From Erythrobacter donghaensis (GTDB lineage Bacteria; Pseudomonadota; Alphaproteobacteria; Sphingomonadales; Sphingomonadaceae), in NCBI RefSeq assembly GCF_001557325.1, contig NZ_LSJS01000077.1, positions 1-24,956 on the forward strand: a DNA stretch of 24,956 nucleotides, written 5' to 3'. Every line of letters starts with the position of its first letter. Within the stretch, counting starts at the first letter, position 1. A program made the position numbers and the translations under genes. The notes beneath the pieces are model-generated. The model was given only the letters and a program-made list of their open reading frames with translations. It was not told the DNA's origin and did not search any database. This document shows positions 2,830 to 24,956 of the stretch, piece by piece.

Positions 2830-4005
2830 TCATCCTTCCGGCATCACTCTTCGCATGAATGCATCGAACAGGGGCACGGTGAACGCTGTATCTCCATGCG
2901 CGGGACTATAGAGCATTCCTTTCGCGATCAGGCTGTTTCGCGTCGGCGCCACGCTTGAAACCTTCACGTGCAAGGCATCGGCAACATCTCCCGACCTGTG
3001 CGGTCCAGTGCCCAAAGTGGCCATGGCGCGCAGATAGCGCTTCTCGGCAGGGGTCAGACGATCGAACCGAACGCGGAAAAAGCTGGCGTCAAGTTCCGCG
3101 AGCGCGCTACGCGTTGCCGCCGCAACATCGTCTTGGGTGATCGGCGACGCCTCAGCTGCATCCCAGCTATGCTTTCCCCACTCCTGGAGGAAATAAGGGT
3201 AACCTTGGGTCTGCTCGCAGATCGCGTCCAACGCCGCATCATCGACAGCTTCGCCTTCCCGCTCGATTGGAAGCCGAATGGCATCGCGCGCGGCGTGATC
3301 ATCGAGCGGTCCGACGGAGACGAACTCGAAAAGTCGCTCCGCATAGGACTTGGCCCGGCCCATCTGCCCAACGAGTTGCGGCAAGCCAGCGGCGATCATT
3401 GTAATGGGAAGCTGCTTCTGGCTGGCCCGGTGGAGCGCACTGATCAATGCGGCCAATTGCTCTTCAGGCACATATTGGAGCTCGTCGATGACGAGTACCA
3501 CAGCTGACCCCTTCTCTCGCGCCGCCTCGCCGATTGCAACCAACAGATCGGCGAGATCAGCTTCAAGGTCGCCGCTGTCGGCCAGGCCCGGCTCGACGTC
3601 GAAATCGAGTCCCACTTCGAGATCGTCATATTTGACCTTGAGCTTTGCGAACCCGGCCAGCGCGCGAAGCGCGCGCTTAACGCCGTCCGAAGCTTGCTTC
3701 ATGCGATCGAGCCTCAGCAGCGTCGCCCGAAGGGCAGGCACGAGGATGCCGGGGAGCGAACGGTTCTCGGGAGCCTCGATGGCGACGATAGCCATGCCCT
3801 CCCCCTCGGCTGCGTCACGCATCGTCGTGAGCAGAACGGTCTTGCCTACACCGCGCAGTCCATAGAGGACGCTCGGGCGTGCCGCGCGCCCCGCGCGGAT
3901 TCGGTCGAGCGCGACCGCGTTGCGTTCAAGCAACGCATCTCGCCCCGCCAACTCTGGAGGGCGAGTGCCGGCGCCAGGCGCGAAGGGGTTACGACGAGCA
4001 TCCAT
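2830..4005 (-). CDS. AAA+ ATPase with C-terminal winged helix (ORC/Cdc6-like 'archaeal ATPase' type)
   Basis: A 391-residue soluble P-loop ATPase. Seen: Walker A GLRGVGKT (residues 49-56), Walker B VVLVIDELQ (169-177, with the acidic pair D174-E175), a sensor-like segment ITMIAAGLP, a lid domain with GYPYFLQEWGKHSWD, and a C-terminal winged-helix region (about 315-391) with RYLRAMATLG and SSVAPTRNSLIAKGML. This layout matches the ATPases grouped with STAND/ORC-like proteins, found in mobile elements, replication loading and some defence modules. The substrate and partner are unknown. The ATG at 4003-4005 is chosen because the protein then starts just ahead of the conserved NPFAPG...ELAGRD segment. 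An inverted repeat overlaps this start, suggesting autoregulation. The ATPase call is sure; the role is not. Confidence 0.85.
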   Translation of the reverse strand: MDARRNPFAPGAGTRPPELAGRDALLERNAVALDRIRAGRAARPSVLYGLRGVGKTVLLTTMRDAAEGEGMAIVAIEAPENRSLPGILVPALRATLLRLDRMKQASDGVKRALRALAGFAKLKVKYDDLEVGLDFDVEPGLADSGDLEADLADLLVAIGEAAREKGSAVVLVIDELQYVPEEQLAALISALHRASQKQLPITMIAAGLPQLVGQMGRAKSYAERLFEFVSVGPLDDHAARDAIRLPIEREGEAVDDAALDAICEQTQGYPYFLQEWGKHSWDAAEASPITQDDVAAATRSALAELDASFFRVRFDRLTPAEKRYLRAMATLGTGPHRSGDVADALHVKVSSVAPTRNSLIAKGMLYSPAHGDTAFTVPLFDAFMRRVMPEG

Positions 4006-4056
4006 AGCGAGGTTATGGTGGTTTATCGTTTTTTTGTAAACTTGATAATCTCGCTA
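4005..4056. promoter_or_regulatory. Split inverted repeat over the ATPase start and promoter region
   Basis: TAGCGAGGTTAT (4005-4016) is matched by ATAATCTCGCTA (4045-4056), 11 of 12 positions pairing, with arm centres 40 bp apart (about four helical turns). Between them lie an A+T-rich stretch with a run of seven T and smaller dyads (GTTTA/TAAAC, TTATC/GATAA). The inner arm abuts the ATG of the ATPase gene, so a protein bound here would block its expression. Confidence 0.5.
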
Positions 4057-4074
4057 TAAGTCGCGTCTCAAGGG

Positions 4075-4103
4075 TTGCAGAAAAGCGCCCCAACCGCTAT
4101 TCT
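4075..4103 (+). promoter_or_regulatory. Sigma70-like promoter of the small membrane protein gene
   Basis: TTGCAG (4075-4080), a 17-base spacer, and TATTCT (4098-4103). Initiation would fall near 4110, leaving a very short leader that contains the ribosome site AGGAG (4111-4115) just before the ATG at 4121. Confidence 0.5.
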
Positions 4104-4120
4104 CCGTCACAGGAGAAAGC

Positions 4121-4330
4121 ATGCGCTTCCCAAAATTCGACCTCGACACATATAATCGAACGAAGGATTTGTCCGGCGGTCCCATCTACGCGATTGTCGA
4201 GGAAGAGATTCCTGAGATCGAAATGATCACCGACGAAAACGGGAACCCCACTCGTGGCGGTCTAATAGGCTACGCCCTCGCCTACGTTTGCATGGCCGGC
4301 CTCGTGGGAGCGATGTTCTACATCCTCTAA
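4121..4330 (+). CDS. Small single-pass membrane protein of unknown function
   Basis: A 69-residue protein that I do not recognise. The first 46 residues are polar and acidic (EEEIPEIEMITDENGNP); residues 47-69 form one hydrophobic helix (GLIGYALAYVCMAGLVGAMF) reaching almost to the C-terminus, so it is probably a tail-anchored inner-membrane protein. A clear AGGAG lies 5 bases before the ATG, and a promoter-like pair sits just upstream, which makes it more credible than a chance ORF. It diverges from the ATPase gene and converges with traG, whose stop is only 3 bases beyond its own. An entry-exclusion or stabilisation role would be a guess. Confidence 0.65.
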   Translation: MRFPKFDLDTYNRTKDLSGGPIYAIVEEEIPEIEMITDENGNPTRGGLIGYALAYVCMAGLVGAMFYIL

Positions 4331-4333
4331 GCT

Positions 4334-7141
4334 CTATTCGCGAAGCTTGGGGTCTTGGAAGAATCCGCGATCGTGGTCGCGGTTCACCTCCTGCTCAAGA
4401 TCAGCGGCCCCTTGAACCCGCTGCCCTCGCATCGTCTGCGCCGCAGCGCGGTCGCCCCCCAGCTCTGCCTTGCCGGCCTCGATGATCGCAGCGGCGCCGA
4501 CATCCCCGCCGCCGCCAGGACCGGCGGGCAGCCGCCCAGGACCATGCGGCCGGTAGGAGGCCCTGACATCCGCCTCGTTCCCCACGCTCGGCCGATTGAC
4601 ATCGACCAGGTCCGGATCGTGGAGGCGCCCCGCAATCTCCGCCCGGATGCCATCCTGCTTGTCATGCATCCAGCGCGTGATCATCTCCTGGCGCACAAGC
4701 CGCTGCTGGTCTGTGAGATCGGTTGCCCAAAGCTCGGGCGCGTCAAGCCCCGGATTTTCGACCTGTTGGCGGCGATACCATTGCGCAAGATCCTGGCTCA
4801 GATTCTCGCTGAGCTGCATGCCATGCGTCTCGGCATAGCTGGCGTCGCGTGACAGCTGCTGGGAAAGCTCCTCAAGGCGCCGGGCCGTCTCAGAGTACGA
4901 CTTTGCCAGCGCCAGAGAATCCTCCGTACTCGCCGACGCCGATGATGTGGCGGATGCCCGGCTGAAGCTACCGCTGCGCGAATAGGTCCCATCGGACATC
5001 GAGGCGCCGCTTCCGCTCGAATGTTCGTCACGCACGCCACTCGAGGATGTGTTGGCGCTGTCGCTGCCGCGGGTTTCGTCAGTCGCATGCCTTAGCGCAT
5101 CTGTCTGAGACCCTGATTTCGATACGCTGCCGCCAATGCCGGGAAGGCGGCCCAAAATTCCTCCGCGACCGCCCGACCCTCCAGCCGTCTGCCGTCCCGT
5201 TCCTGCGGACACCACCCCGGAGATCTGGTCGCTCGTCTGCGCCTGACGATCATGGCCCTGAGATATTCGCTGACCTTGAGAGATCGTATCCCGTTCCTCC
5301 AGACCCTGCGTGCTGCTCCCGGTCCGCCGGTCGAATTGATCGACGGACGTGTTCGCCTGCCGGCCGCTGCTCGAATCCCAGCCGGACGACCGCTCGGTCG
5401 AGGTGCCGAATGCACTGCGGTTGGCATGCGTAGCGGTCAGGACCTCGGCCGCGGCATTCTCATAAGCCTGCGACTGTCGGTGCGCCTCGCTCGCCATCTC
5501 CCGCCATTCCGCGACCGACCCGGTCGTCATGGTAGGGGTGAAGCCGAGGCGCGAAATGGCCCCCGACGTGTCGAAGACGTCCTGACCATTGCCAAAGCCG
5601 TTGATCATCGCGCCATTATCCTGGCGCCAGCCCATGCTCGGGGCGCCGCTCATATAGCTCGGCGCCGTGGTCCACTGATCGGCCTGCCGCATATTCGAAG
5701 TCGAGTTCGCCCAGCTCACATTGCCATAGGAGTAGTTTCCGGTGGTCTGCTCGAGCGCGGCGGCCTCCGCCGCGTTCTGCGCCGGCGCCAGCATCGACAT
5801 GGACTGGCCAGCAATCGACATCGCGCCGCGAGCAAGACCGGCCGCGAGGAAAGGCACGCTCATCAGCATGAAGCCGGCGATCGTCGCCGTCTCGCCGTTG
5901 ACCGCGCCGATGCCGGCATAACTTCCAAGCGTCACGCCTCCCCCGGCCACGCCGTTCGCCGCGGATTCCGCCCTTGTCATGCAGATCATGTGGAGGATGA
6001 CATAGAGCGGGCCCCAGGCAGCCAGGTAGAAGAAGCCCATGGCATAGCCCTTGAGCGTGCCAACCCCCGTCTGGGGCATGAGGAACAGCGGGAAGATGAC
6101 TGGGAACATCGCGAAGAAGACGACGGTCAGGACGATGTTGAGGATCGGCACCCAGGCCATCGCCTGCTGGGCAATCGAATTATAGGTGTTGCGCGCCTGG
6201 ATGTCGGCGCGCGTCTGGGCGAAGGTGTCTATCGCGGCCGCGCCTGCCCCACCAGCCATGCTGTTGCGTGCTTGCATGAAGGCGTTGATCGCTGTGTTCT
6301 GCCGCATCGTTTCGGTGAAATTGCTCCCCGATCCGGTGAACGCCGTGTTCGCGATCGGCACGTCATGCTTGAGCTTGTCGGCGGCCAGGGCGTTGCTGAG
6401 CCTGGGATAGACCTCCTTACCCCAGATCGGAGCATTGGCCTCGATCATCGGCGCCCATTGCGCGTCGAGCGCCTGGTAGGCCTGGCGGCAGGTGATGATG
6501 AAGTTCTGAACGGTGCCGTCGCCCTGGCGCTCCAGCCATTCCTGCGAGCGCGCTTCCGAGCCCGGCCCGATCGCGGCCCACAGGTCGGGCGCCTTGGCGA
6601 GGTTCGTGAGCGACTTCTGATAGAGCATCACGTCGCCGAACACGCAGTTCTTGAAATGGTTTTCGAGGTTGGTCGAGAACTCCGCGTCGCGAACAACGAA
6701 ATTGCGGGTCGCGTCGAACAGGCGCGCGCCATAGACCATGCCATTGCTCGAATAATTGAGCTCGCTGGGCATGACGAACACCGTCTCGGCCGTCCGCGTC
6801 AGCCAATCCCCGACCTGCGTCGTAAAGCTCGCCAGCACACCCAGGCCCATCGGCACATTGTCGATAGTCGATGGCGCGAGGCTCGGGTTGATCCGGTCGG
6901 TCACCTTGATGCTCACCGTGGGCACCATCAGGCAAAGATAGATCGCCGTCGCCTGGAGGAACCAGTTCATCCACGCCTTGTAGTTAAGCGTGAAGGCGAC
7001 AACGAGCAGCGAGTAGATGAGGCCCATCACCATCACGACCCGCAGGAGCGAGCGGTAGCCCCCTCCCCCTGACCAGGCAGCGACGGCGTTGAACACGTTT
7101 ACGAGATACTCGCCGCCCCCGACCGTGAAGACCTCCAGCAT
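4334..7141 (-). CDS. traG: TraG, F-type conjugation mating-pair stabilisation and pilus assembly protein
   Basis: An inner-membrane protein that in F is needed for pilus assembly (N-terminal part) and mating-pair stabilisation and exclusion (C-terminal part). Its 935 residues match the F protein (938). Seen: N-terminal membrane segments (about 31-60 VVMVMGLIYSLLVVAFTL and 63-80), a periplasmic stretch with FKNCVFGDVM, more membrane helices in 325-460 (WVPILNIVLTVVFFAMFPV, YAMGFFYLAAWGPLYVILH), then a long Ser/Gly/Gln-rich hydrophilic region (about 500-760) and a charged helical tail. The N-terminal membrane domain is the conserved part; the C-terminal half is typically variable. It is the last gene of the operon, 29 bases after traH, with GGGAG before the ATG. 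The specificity region for a cognate TraS-like partner cannot be read from sequence. Confidence 0.93.
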   Translation of the reverse strand: MLEVFTVGGGEYLVNVFNAVAAWSGGGGYRSLLRVVMVMGLIYSLLVVAFTLNYKAWMNWFLQATAIYLCLMVPTVSIKVTDRINPSLAPSTIDNVPMGLGVLASFTTQVGDWLTRTAETVFVMPSELNYSSNGMVYGARLFDATRNFVVRDAEFSTNLENHFKNCVFGDVMLYQKSLTNLAKAPDLWAAIGPGSEARSQEWLERQGDGTVQNFIITCRQAYQALDAQWAPMIEANAPIWGKEVYPRLSNALAADKLKHDVPIANTAFTGSGSNFTETMRQNTAINAFMQARNSMAGGAGAAAIDTFAQTRADIQARNTYNSIAQQAMAWVPILNIVLTVVFFAMFPVIFPLFLMPQTGVGTLKGYAMGFFYLAAWGPLYVILHMICMTRAESAANGVAGGGVTLGSYAGIGAVNGETATIAGFMLMSVPFLAAGLARGAMSIAGQSMSMLAPAQNAAEAAALEQTTGNYSYGNVSWANSTSNMRQADQWTTAPSYMSGAPSMGWRQDNGAMINGFGNGQDVFDTSGAISRLGFTPTMTTGSVAEWREMASEAHRQSQAYENAAAEVLTATHANRSAFGTSTERSSGWDSSSGRQANTSVDQFDRRTGSSTQGLEERDTISQGQRISQGHDRQAQTSDQISGVVSAGTGRQTAGGSGGRGGILGRLPGIGGSVSKSGSQTDALRHATDETRGSDSANTSSSGVRDEHSSGSGASMSDGTYSRSGSFSRASATSSASASTEDSLALAKSYSETARRLEELSQQLSRDASYAETHGMQLSENLSQDLAQWYRRQQVENPGLDAPELWATDLTDQQRLVRQEMITRWMHDKQDGIRAEIAGRLHDPDLVDVNRPSVGNEADVRASYRPHGPGRLPAGPGGGGDVGAAAIIEAGKAELGGDRAAAQTMRGQRVQGAADLEQEVNRDHDRGFFQDPKLRE

Positions 7142-23401: not shown

Positions 23402-23722
23402 TCAGATCGTCGCGGTCACGGTGGACGTGACGATCGGCACGCCGGTTCCGGCACCGACGCCGACGCCGACCGGGATCGCGATCTGCCCCATCGAGAAGCG
23501 ACCCGAAGCGAGGGCGACCACGCCGCCGGCGAGGCTGAGCACCGTGATGATCTTGCCGCCGGATCCCTCGAGGAAGTCGGTGAACTTAGTGAGCGCGGTG
23601 TTGAACGTCGTGTCGGCGCCGGCGAAGGCGGGACCGGCGAAGAAGAGAAAAGCGAACAGGAGTACGGCGAGGGCGAGGATCGCCAGCTCCGCGTGTCCGC
23701 TCTTTTGGAGGACAGACTGCAT
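23402..23722 (-). CDS. traA: TraA, F-type conjugative prepilin
   Basis: The major pilus subunit precursor. From the ATG at 23722 (GAAGGA 8 bases upstream) it has 106 residues: a long leader with a hydrophobic core (about residues 12-30, ELAILALAVLLFAFLFFAG) and cleavage after PAFA (about residue 34), leaving a 72-residue mature pilin, near the 70 of F. The mature part has a short amphipathic start (GADTTFNTALTKFTDFLEG), a first hydrophobic helix (KIITVLSLAGGVVALASG), a short polar turn and a second hydrophobic, Gly/Val-rich segment, the two-helix hairpin of F pilin. First gene of the operon. TraQ and TraX (chaperone, acetylase) are not visible. A longer reading to 23797 has no support. Confidence 0.88.
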   Translation of the reverse strand: MQSVLQKSGHAELAILALAVLLFAFLFFAGPAFAGADTTFNTALTKFTDFLEGSGGKIITVLSLAGGVVALASGRFSMGQIAIPVGVGVGAGTGVPIVTSTVTATI

Positions 23723-23829
23723 GTGGATTTCCTTCGATTGGAGACGCGACGGAACCGCGCCCAAACAAAGCTGGCCAATCACATCGCCGCACCGCAACGA
23801 CGTATGGGATCAGCCCCCTCCCGAATCGG

Positions 23830-23867: not shown

Positions 23868-23955
23868 GGGGCACCGTGTCCCGGTGATCAGGGCATCCTG
23901 CCCCGTCATATGGGGCAAATTGGCCGGGTTGACGGGGCGTTATGCCCTGCAATTG
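23868..23955. repeat. Four 22-bp iterons, each holding a palindrome GGGCA-N3-TGCCC
   Basis: Starts at 23868, 23890, 23912 and 23934, exactly 22 bp apart. Conserved in at least three of four copies: GGGGCA at positions 1-6. Conserved in all four: GGG at 2-4, C at 5, TG at 10-11, CC at 13-14 and G at 16. Within each copy positions 2-14 form a 13-bp dyad: perfect at 23891-23903, one mismatch in each of the other three. The array lies between traA (starting at 23722) and the divergent gene at 24065. The geometry (dyads two turns apart on about one face of the helix) is that of cooperative repressor or relaxosome-protein binding. Confidence 0.75.
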
Positions 23956-24039
23956 CGGACAGGCTTCATTCGCGGTAGATTCGCGGCGCAAGACTCGTCA
24001 GATATTAACCATTGCCTGTTCATAATCCCGGCAAGGCAA
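23953..24039 (+). promoter_or_regulatory. Probable promoter/operator region of the divergent gene
   Basis: TTGCGG (23953-23958), 17 bases, TAGATT (23976-23981) is a weak sigma70-like pair. It is covered by a direct repeat ATTCGCGG at 23968-23975 and 23979-23986 (11 bp apart). Further on, TTGCCT (24012-24017) and AGGCAA (24034-24039) form an inverted repeat flanking CATAAT (24021-24026), a second -10 candidate. The repeats suggest tight control; which promoter is used is open. Confidence 0.35.
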
Positions 24040-24064: not shown

Positions 24065-24532
24065 ATGAGGGCAGTTCAGGACGTGGGCACTATGGGCGCT
24101 GACTCACGAGACTTTACACTGGATATCTCCGAACGCTTCTTTCATCTCACGACTGAGAGCCTTCGCCTTCATTCTAATAGTACTAAGTGCTATCAGACGC
24201 TCGAAAATCTCGTGAACAGCCGCGTTCCAGGAATAGAAAAGATAGATGATGAGGATGCGGAGAACCTAAAGCGCCATCTGGTGGCTGTCCCTACAGGCGG
24301 AAGCATTCAGATCCATTTAGAGATTACGGAGACGAGTGCCAAAAATCTTGAGAGAATAAAAGAATTGCTCGAAACAAGACTCGAAACCAACATTTCTGTT
24401 GGGGACGCTCTTTCTGCCCTTTTATTCAACTATATAGTCGAGCAGCGGGCAGCTCGCGTGATTTCCAAGCTCCAGTTGGACGAGTTCGATCAACCTCGCG
24501 AGACCGGCCCATTCAAGGGGTCCCGGCACTAA
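24065..24532 (+). CDS. Probable ribbon-helix-helix DNA-binding protein, divergent from the tra operon
   Basis: A 155-residue protein (146 if it starts at the ATG at 24092, which has AGGA about 11 bases upstream). I do not recognise it as a named family. The C-terminal half looks like a ribbon-helix-helix fold: strand SIQIHLEIT (about residues 80-88), helix SAKNLERIKELLETRLE (91-107), turn NISV, helix GDALSALLFNYIVEQ (113-127), then a basic RAARVISK. The N-terminal half is helical and hydrophilic. Such proteins bind palindromic or tandem sites, and four palindromes lie just upstream. Position next to traA recalls TraY/TraM-type relaxosome proteins or a tra repressor. Base composition is visibly lower in G+C than the tra genes. 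The RHH call is inferred from pattern only. Confidence 0.6.
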   Translation: MRAVQDVGTMGADSRDFTLDISERFFHLTTESLRLHSNSTKCYQTLENLVNSRVPGIEKIDDEDAENLKRHLVAVPTGGSIQIHLEITETSAKNLERIKELLETRLETNISVGDALSALLFNYIVEQRAARVISKLQLDEFDQPRETGPFKGSRH

Positions 24533-24683: not shown

Positions 24684-24956
24684 GTGGAGCTCGCCCAAGG
24701 CGACGAGCTGCAGAGGGACTATGTGCCTCTGATCCTGCGGGCGATGGCTTGCAAGAAAGCAACTCAACGCAAACTCGCCCACCTGACCGGTATCAGCAAA
24801 TCGAGGCTGGGCGTTTTGCTGCACAGCAAGCCCGAAAAACGCGTCACCATGACGCTTCCTGAATTTGAAACAATATTGCACGCGCTCGGCATGAATCTAG
24901 TGTGTCAATCGGCGTGCAAACGGGACCCCCTATCGGCGCGCAAAAGGGACCCCCTT
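24684..24956 (+). CDS. Small helix-turn-helix protein, 3' end disrupted by the IS21-like end
   Basis: The GTG at 24684 follows AGGGG (24671-24675) by 8 bases. The native part (72 codons to about 24899) reads ELQRDYVPLILRAMACKKAT, then a helix-turn-helix QRKLAHLTGISKSRLGVLL, HSKPEKRVTMTLPEFETILH and ALGMNL, the pattern of Cro/CI-type (XRE) regulators. The last codons to the window edge (VCQSACKRDPLSARKRDPL) are read from the IS end and are not part of the original gene. In the same frame, 11 codons upstream, is an ATG with GGGGG before it (24651) and a TAA at 24678, giving a 9-codon leader (MTSLAKLGA). Either the leader is real or a stop mutation has cut the first codons. Its target is unknown. 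Confidence 0.62.
   Translation, partial: MELAQGDELQRDYVPLILRAMACKKATQRKLAHLTGISKSRLGVLLHSKPEKRVTMTLPEFETILHALGMNLVCQSACKRDPLSARKRDPL
24901..24956 (+). mobile_element. IS21-like insertion sequence terminus (element extends off the right edge)
   Basis: Starts TGTGTCA and carries two 22-base units, ATCGGCGTGCAAACGGGACC plus CC (24908-24929) and ATCGGCGCGCAAAAGGGACC plus CC (24932-24953). They differ from each other at two positions and match the unit at the left window edge in 20 of 22 positions. TG tip with tandem inner repeats fits IS21-family ends. The left-edge end points the opposite way, as expected for the far end of a like-oriented copy. Confidence 0.65.

Follow-up and report, generated by a model that had tools for sequence, protein, structure and literature searches.

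The intergenic region between the first gene of an F-type tra operon and the divergent genes for two putative regulators, P1 and P2, in Erythrobacter donghaensis contains an array of four palindromic units that is probably the operator of P2, a helix-turn-helix (HTH) protein whose gene is the second of the divergent pair. The case is built from sequence comparison, namely, the array itself, its recurrence in other plasmids, the concordance between one residue of P2 and one base of the operator, the stepwise spacing between the array and a promoter, and the enrichment of GANTC sites at that promoter. Throughout, the window denotes the whole stretch of DNA that was analysed, 24,956 nucleotides in length.

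The array and its recurrence in other plasmids

The four dyads, GGGCACCGTGTCC (23869–23881), GGGCATCCTGCCC (23891–23903), GGGCAAATTGGCC (23913–23925) and GGGCGTTATGCCC (23935–23947), follow one another at a pitch of exactly 22 bp, free of indels. The start positions and the pitch given in the earlier note were exact on recount, the unit positions that it listed as invariant were correct, and the array is indeed flanked by the pilin operon on one side and, on the other, by a divergent gene for what a structure model predicts to be a ribbon-helix-helix (RHH) protein. The note also had GGGCA-N3-TGCCC occurring four times: there are four dyads, but only the one at 23891 matches exactly, each of the other three having one mismatch. 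A fifth, degenerate half-site, GGACA (23957–23961, plus strand), is in phase with the array and overlaps the putative −35 element and spacer of the divergent promoter. With at most one mismatch, GGGCA-N3-TGCCC matches five times in the window, and four of these matches are the array dyads. When four dyads at a 22-bp pitch are scored without regard to sequence, the array reaches 18 of 24, with 22 bp as the best pitch, compared with a mean of 13.3 and a maximum of 16 among 40 local shuffles at pitches of 21–23 bp. Taken by itself, this shuffle test is modest evidence, and what is decisive for the reality of the array is its recurrence in other plasmids. In the genome G000, a two-unit pattern with up to one mismatch matches, on the contig of the window, at the array alone; at two mismatches, the pattern is common (349 forward matches versus 190 for the control).

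Recurrence was assessed in 145 upstream regions, mostly pilin-anchored, that form 71 clusters. These include 16 PLSDB loci found by DNA similarity, 79 and 29 pilin-anchored regions that are unselected with respect to the operator, 11 P2-anchored regions, 9 PLSDB loci picked from P1/P2 matches, and the window itself. A P2 match with an E-value below 1e-10 defines 55 of the clusters as P2-bearing. The comparison with homologous plasmids that the earlier note had named as its refutation test was made: where the flanking genes are shared, the array is retained in many such plasmids, at its position and in its dyad form, although 25 of the 55 P2-bearing clusters are without a chain of at least three units under an automatic rule, and the half-site letters differ from plasmid to plasmid. 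In the 30 clusters with a chain, it consists of three units in 10, four in 17 and five in 3, and the pitch is 22 bp in 21, 20 bp in 4, 21 bp in 3 and 23 bp in 2. A 22-bp chain is present in 18 GGGC clusters; it starts 146–149 nt from traA in 15 of them and at 137 nt in one, and the remaining two have units at 127 and then 149 nt. For 19 of the 22 clusters assigned below to operator class G, 22 bp is the pitch with the highest sequence-agnostic dyad score.

The half-sites found are GGGC, including the form GGGC-N5-GCCC, as well as GGAC and GGCC. GGAC-N5-GTCC units recur at 22 bp in clusters L091, L095 and L156, and GGAC-N4-GTCC units at 20 bp in L049, L064 and L066; L006 has GGCC dyads, and still other dyads are present elsewhere. 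When the 12-mer GGAC array pattern was sought in four genomes or records, perfect matches occurred solely at the arrays of G480 and G481, with none in G482 and W07, which have 22-bp arrays. The plasmid pDE1 of S. baderi (NZ_CP013265; the end of L182 and positions 1–120 of L188) carries a run of near-identical GGACCACGGTCC units at a 20-bp pitch, six at the start of the record, with five further perfect dyads at the other end; the array has apparently undergone tandem amplification recently.

P2 is present in 12 of the 397 genomes of the family. Among 72,556 plasmid records, P2 was detected in 44, all from sphingomonad genera, and the pilin in 86; a search for more P2 loci in other genera brought little gain. 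By this distribution, the module is plasmid-borne and patchy. By eye, other repeats can be seen upstream of traA in the more distant F-type loci L118 (GGGCGC-N-GCGCCC), L100 (TTGCCA-like), L120 (TGCGCA), L110 and L114, which suggests that the principle extends beyond the present family of P2 proteins. In L016 (Sphingopyxis DBS4 pDB-1, 3334–4361), inspection by eye revealed an unannotated divergent frame upstream of traA that looks like another tandem RHH protein, with no GGNC array.

Which protein reads the array

P2 (24684–24902, plus strand), the proposed reader of the array, matches PF13443 with 22.2 bits against a cut-off of 22, and the intact copy in L001 scores 20.6, just under it; 23 of the 46 aligned members match this family at E ≤ 0.01. 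The predicted fold of P2 fits Cro/C1-type (XRE) HTH proteins, and a sequence search of P1 or P2 against solved structures returned nothing convincing. In relatives, intact P2 consists of 164 amino acids; the copy in the window is cut after the HTH domain, at 24903, and the gene is whole in G000 and in near-identical plasmids. Both ends of the window (24903–24956 and 1–60) resemble IS21-type terminal repeats, the right one truncating P2. From 24903 on, G000 differs from the window by 40 mismatches, and P2 is intact there. The sequence that cuts P2 is found again on 126 plasmid records, most of them from Alphaproteobacteria, and such ends lie beside annotated istA/istB in L003 and L191; the window is possibly a contig that breaks off at copies of an IS21-like element.

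Each cluster was given an operator class by a fixed rule, from perfect GGNC dyads located 90–300 nt from traA, which took the place of a first assignment made partly by eye. The 71 clusters divide into 22 of class G, 20 of class A, one of class C, one tie and 27 without a class; for the 55 P2-bearing clusters, the respective numbers are 22, 17, 1, 1 and 14. Shuffled regions contain at least one dyad in 6.5% of cases and two or more in 0.5%, and 6 of the 39 P2-bearing clusters called as G or A rest on one perfect dyad. In all these 39 callable clusters, the third base of the half-site agrees with a single residue of P2, position 39 in L005 and position 28 in an intact 164-residue relative of the window P2. 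This residue is glutamine or histidine in 22 of 22 G clusters, and isoleucine, leucine, valine or phenylalanine in 17 of 17 A clusters. It is the sole error-free column among the 166 columns of the P2 alignment (the next best has 2 errors of 37–39), and it starts the HTH helix that spans residues 28–35.

The P2 tree implies at least three class changes, and the same is found with the HTH columns removed; a single clade for class A is rejected (p = 0.034), with the long or odd rows L152, L154, L158 and L159 omitted from the second tree. The residue link is supported by just three independent class changes, too few for a paired sign test (2 supported pairs, p = 0.5) to reach significance. All three callable clusters that were fetched later fit the rule: L172 (leucine, class A), pDE1 (tyrosine, A) and L189 (leucine, A), of which pDE1 presents a new residue type and L172 is near a known cluster (8-mer Jaccard 0.45). 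Two more of the later clusters, L190 and L181, lack a perfect dyad, and the stretch from L174 yielded no P2. Outside the two main classes, the C-class cluster L006 has valine at the P2 residue and a different recognition helix, L037 has arginine and mixed dyads, and two clusters with glutamine or histidine are unclassed, among them L015 (glutamine), with quite different repeats. L095, with a clear GGAC array, a decayed P1 and no P2, counts against P2 as the reader, and we take it for a decaying locus.

The other product of the divergent operon, P1 (24092–24532, plus strand), is a predicted tandem RHH protein whose fold may be TraY-like; comparison with homologues favours 24092 over 24065 as its start. 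Its model (pLDDT 83.3) combines two RHH units in one chain, with strands at 14–21 and 81–88 and helices at 23–40, 46–57, 89–106 and 112–141, and the best structural matches are entries of the F-plasmid relaxosome (TraY chains); in Pfam and NCBIfam, P1 reaches no family at its cut-off. P1 would possibly be a relaxosome accessory or a co-regulator. The earlier note put forward the protein of 24065–24532 as a candidate for binding the array, and a TraY-like P1 acting on the array as a repressor or activator of tra would be in keeping with its adjacent, divergent gene, with the predicted fold, and with the train of three molecules that F TraY forms on oriT DNA in the account of that complex in PMC12117103. 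However, the operator class follows a residue in the HTH domain of P2, and therefore P1 probably does not bind the array. No P1 column tracks the class free of error: among 146 columns, the lowest count is 3 errors in 26 rows, in the C-terminal tail, or 5 in 39 when all rows are filled. The second-strand residues of P1 vary among plasmids that share GGGC, and in 8 of the 55 P2-bearing clusters (L014, L039, L062, L076, L084, L102, L119 and L147) no P1 gene is detected, yet repeats of the expected form persist, as judged by eye; the fixed dyad rule assigns a class to L062 alone, on one dyad, and the other seven are degenerate. P1 thus seems dispensable to the array, and we consider P1 an unlikely reader. 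In L001 (S. xenophagum C1 p2, 3841–4662), an IS5-family insertion splits the P1 gene in a locus that is otherwise near-identical.

A wider regulon of P2 was considered and rejected: outside the array, six complete plasmids contain 23 sites, compared with 16 for a control pattern. Counted per strand, these plasmids have 6, 6, 6, 9, 6 and 8 motif sites, of which 2, 4, 4, 3, 2 and 3, respectively, are in the array.

The regulator promoter and the proposed switch

On the P1 side of the array, a conserved TTG-N17-T(A/T)GANTC element (23953–23982 in the window) delineates the putative promoter of the regulators, with the −35 hexamer TTGCGG at 23953–23958 and the −10 hexamer TAGATT at 23976–23981, both on the plus strand. 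The distance from the centre of the last dyad to the start of the −10 element is 32.5–36, 57 or 75–77 bp in 19 of the 23 clusters examined; in the other four, a −10 with its TTG was not found. Such steps of approximately 21–22 bp would be expected of an array that has to present a constant face to the promoter. A generic scan for sigma-70 promoters and terminators reported nothing, the putative regulator promoter included.

The stepwise spacing to a promoter also speaks against the possibility that the array is an accessory-protein site of an origin of transfer rather than a transcriptional operator. In the F plasmid, traY precedes traA, and the order lytic transglycosylase, P2, P1, array, traA resembles that arrangement. 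The MOBF relaxase gene lies about 41 kb from the array on the same contig, which is weak evidence against an oriT site because F, too, keeps the two apart. The likely relaxosome accessory protein SphTR is placed upstream of traD in section 17 of PMC5102898. We regard an oriT function of the array as very unlikely. Inverted repeats are compatible with hairpins too, so the dyads might work in RNA, for example, as a leader or attenuator; nevertheless, the array is located upstream of the conserved regulator promoter, and the identity of the dyads tracks a residue in the DNA-binding domain of P2, which leaves this reading with hardly any credibility.

GANTC is a prominent feature of the regulator promoter. 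In the window, site 1 (GATTC, 23978–23982) overlaps the −10 element and site 2 (GACTC, 23992–23996) follows 14 bp beyond; a further GANTC site is on the traA side (23823–23827). Across the P2-bearing clusters, the regulator side contains 92 sites versus 32.5 (s.d. 5.5) in dinucleotide shuffles, with sites in 54 of the 55 clusters, although GANTC partly coincides with the −10 element and the clusters are related to one another. The density at the regulator promoter is 21.6 per kb, against 1.0 in the coding sequence on the traA side and 2.5 on the P1/P2 coding side; for sites on the traA side, the enrichment is weak (40 versus 32.2 shuffled). The middle base of the GANTC at the −10 element is free (T in 19, A in 6, G in 3 and C in 1; n = 29), and the second site is most often 13–14 bp away. 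A conserved GANTC in the core promoter, a feature of CcrM/GcrA-regulated promoters, is present here. YGAKTCK, the form of GcrA-type sites given in the relevant part of PMC7987155, occurs in 39 of the 55 clusters, compared with a shuffled mean of 4.9 and maximum of 14. The genome G000 has a gene for GcrA as well as one strong match to an N6/N4 methylase.

The octamer TTAACCAT (24005–24012, plus strand) resembles a CtrA half-site and is a putative CtrA site; it is found 273–285 nt from traA in 11 of the 55 clusters. The CtrA half motif is TTAA in the part of PMC4287350 that deals with it. The full CtrA motif with one mismatch occurs on the regulator side in 2 clusters versus 1.4 shuffled and on the traA side in 5 versus 0.9, the shuffle maximum being 5.

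In the mechanism that we propose, P2 dimers would occupy one dyad after another on a single face of the DNA, at intervals of about two helical turns, and would set the expression of the P1–P2 promoter, whose −35 element abuts the array and overlaps the fifth, weak half-site. By analogy with the controller proteins of restriction-modification systems, we infer the sign of this control: activation may come from the strong upstream sites and repression from the weak site at −35, which would make the switch self-limiting. With its conserved GANTC, the promoter of the regulators is probably also acted on by CcrM methylation and GcrA of the host, so that plasmid DNA could behave differently just after replication or transfer.

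P2 on the array probably also sets the expression of the tra operon behind traA, and this is the weakest step, given that no tra-direction promoter could be defined by eye. The pilin gene traA (23402–23722, minus strand; TrbC/VirB2-type, PF04956, E = 1.1e-07, with annotated orthologues) is the first gene of a leftward F-type tra operon, followed by traL, traE, traK and traB, with family matches to TraL (7.5e-35), TraE (8.4e-57), TraK and TrbI. Just upstream of the traA ribosome-binding site, at about 23741–23763 on the minus strand, we observed a GGGCGCGG-NNCC-GTCGCG-like element that recurs, by eye, in most clusters compared and is possibly a leader hairpin.

The host-type motifs in the promoter region, GANTC and TTAACCAT, raise the question of whether a host factor rather than a plasmid protein binds the array. 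Arrays of different classes, however, reside in one strain, namely, G and A in S. cloacae JCM 10874, and G and A (the latter called from a single dyad) in S. indicum BiD32. One host factor would not account for this, and we regard binding by a host factor as highly improbable. A more speculative proposal we put forward tentatively, as possible but doubtful: the HTH residue and the operator base would change together to yield classes resembling those of phage immunity, so that plasmids in one cell are separately controlled, and the timing of the switch, once the plasmid has replicated or has entered a new cell, would be set by cell-cycle methylation of that promoter in the host. Class separation of co-resident plasmids as a rule is rejected: of the five strains or bins in which two or more class calls were obtained, three differ (one of these a metagenome-assembled genome), one is mixed and one has the same class.

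Relation to known conjugation and control systems

The window belongs, by its F-type tra genes and MOBF relaxase in a sphingomonad, with the group E F-like plasmids, and near-identical plasmids are typed MOBF/MPF_F in PLSDB. Section 17 of PMC5102898 states that group E plasmids lack TraM, TraJ, TraY and FinO, that SphTR is the only DNA-binding protein found near the transfer genes, and that it is unclear whether these genes are under any transcriptional control. Confirmation of P1 and P2 would call for revision of the statements there on the lack of TraY and of any DNA-binding protein besides SphTR. Among the open-access literature matches listed, no such site or regulator is described for sphingomonad transfer regions, and no tra regulator is reported under GANTC control. 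In the group E prototype, pCAR3, distant relatives of P1 and P2 are encoded beside traA (25.1 and 16.9 bits, weak matches from a three-sequence search). Its intergenic region contains TTCC-N5-GGAA at 149 and 171 nt from traA, TTCC at 192 nt, and GANTC at 104, 128, 259, 279 and 295; the three-unit dyad score, 11 versus 10.7 shuffled, is not above shuffles, so that an array in pCAR3 rests on position and spacing. Many sphingomonad F-like plasmids carry genes for pollutant degradation, and the array, P1 and P2 are concrete candidate regulators for such plasmids.

F TraY, like P1 as predicted, has two RHH units per chain and is encoded next to traA, whereas P1 is divergently transcribed and has no match among sequence families. 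In the group D F-like plasmids, EntFR, which has two RHH domains and is a proposed regulatory substitute for TraY, resembles P1 by description only; the part of PMC5102898 that treats EntFR mentions neither an HTH partner nor an operator array. Control of traJ/finP by Dam methylation, as outlined in the pertinent part of PMC10306973, is an F-type precedent for methylation-dependent regulation, but in the sphingomonad plasmids, the motif is GANTC. In the alphaproteobacterial promoters controlled by CcrM/GcrA, including those of repABC, GANTC lies in or near the core promoter, according to the relevant parts of PMC4287350, PMC11514494 and PMC7987155, and the module described here suggests that conjugation is linked to the cell cycle of Alphaproteobacteria.

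In its manner of working only, P2 is likened to the controller proteins of restriction-modification systems, such as C.Esp1396I, which have the Cro/C1 fold; among the annotated neighbours in 16 PLSDB loci, there is no restriction-modification gene beside P2. Compared with these controllers, P2 has an extra helical C-terminal half and would act with an array in which the dyads can number five or more. Its class switch would show, in compact natural form, how a transcription factor can change in step with its operators.
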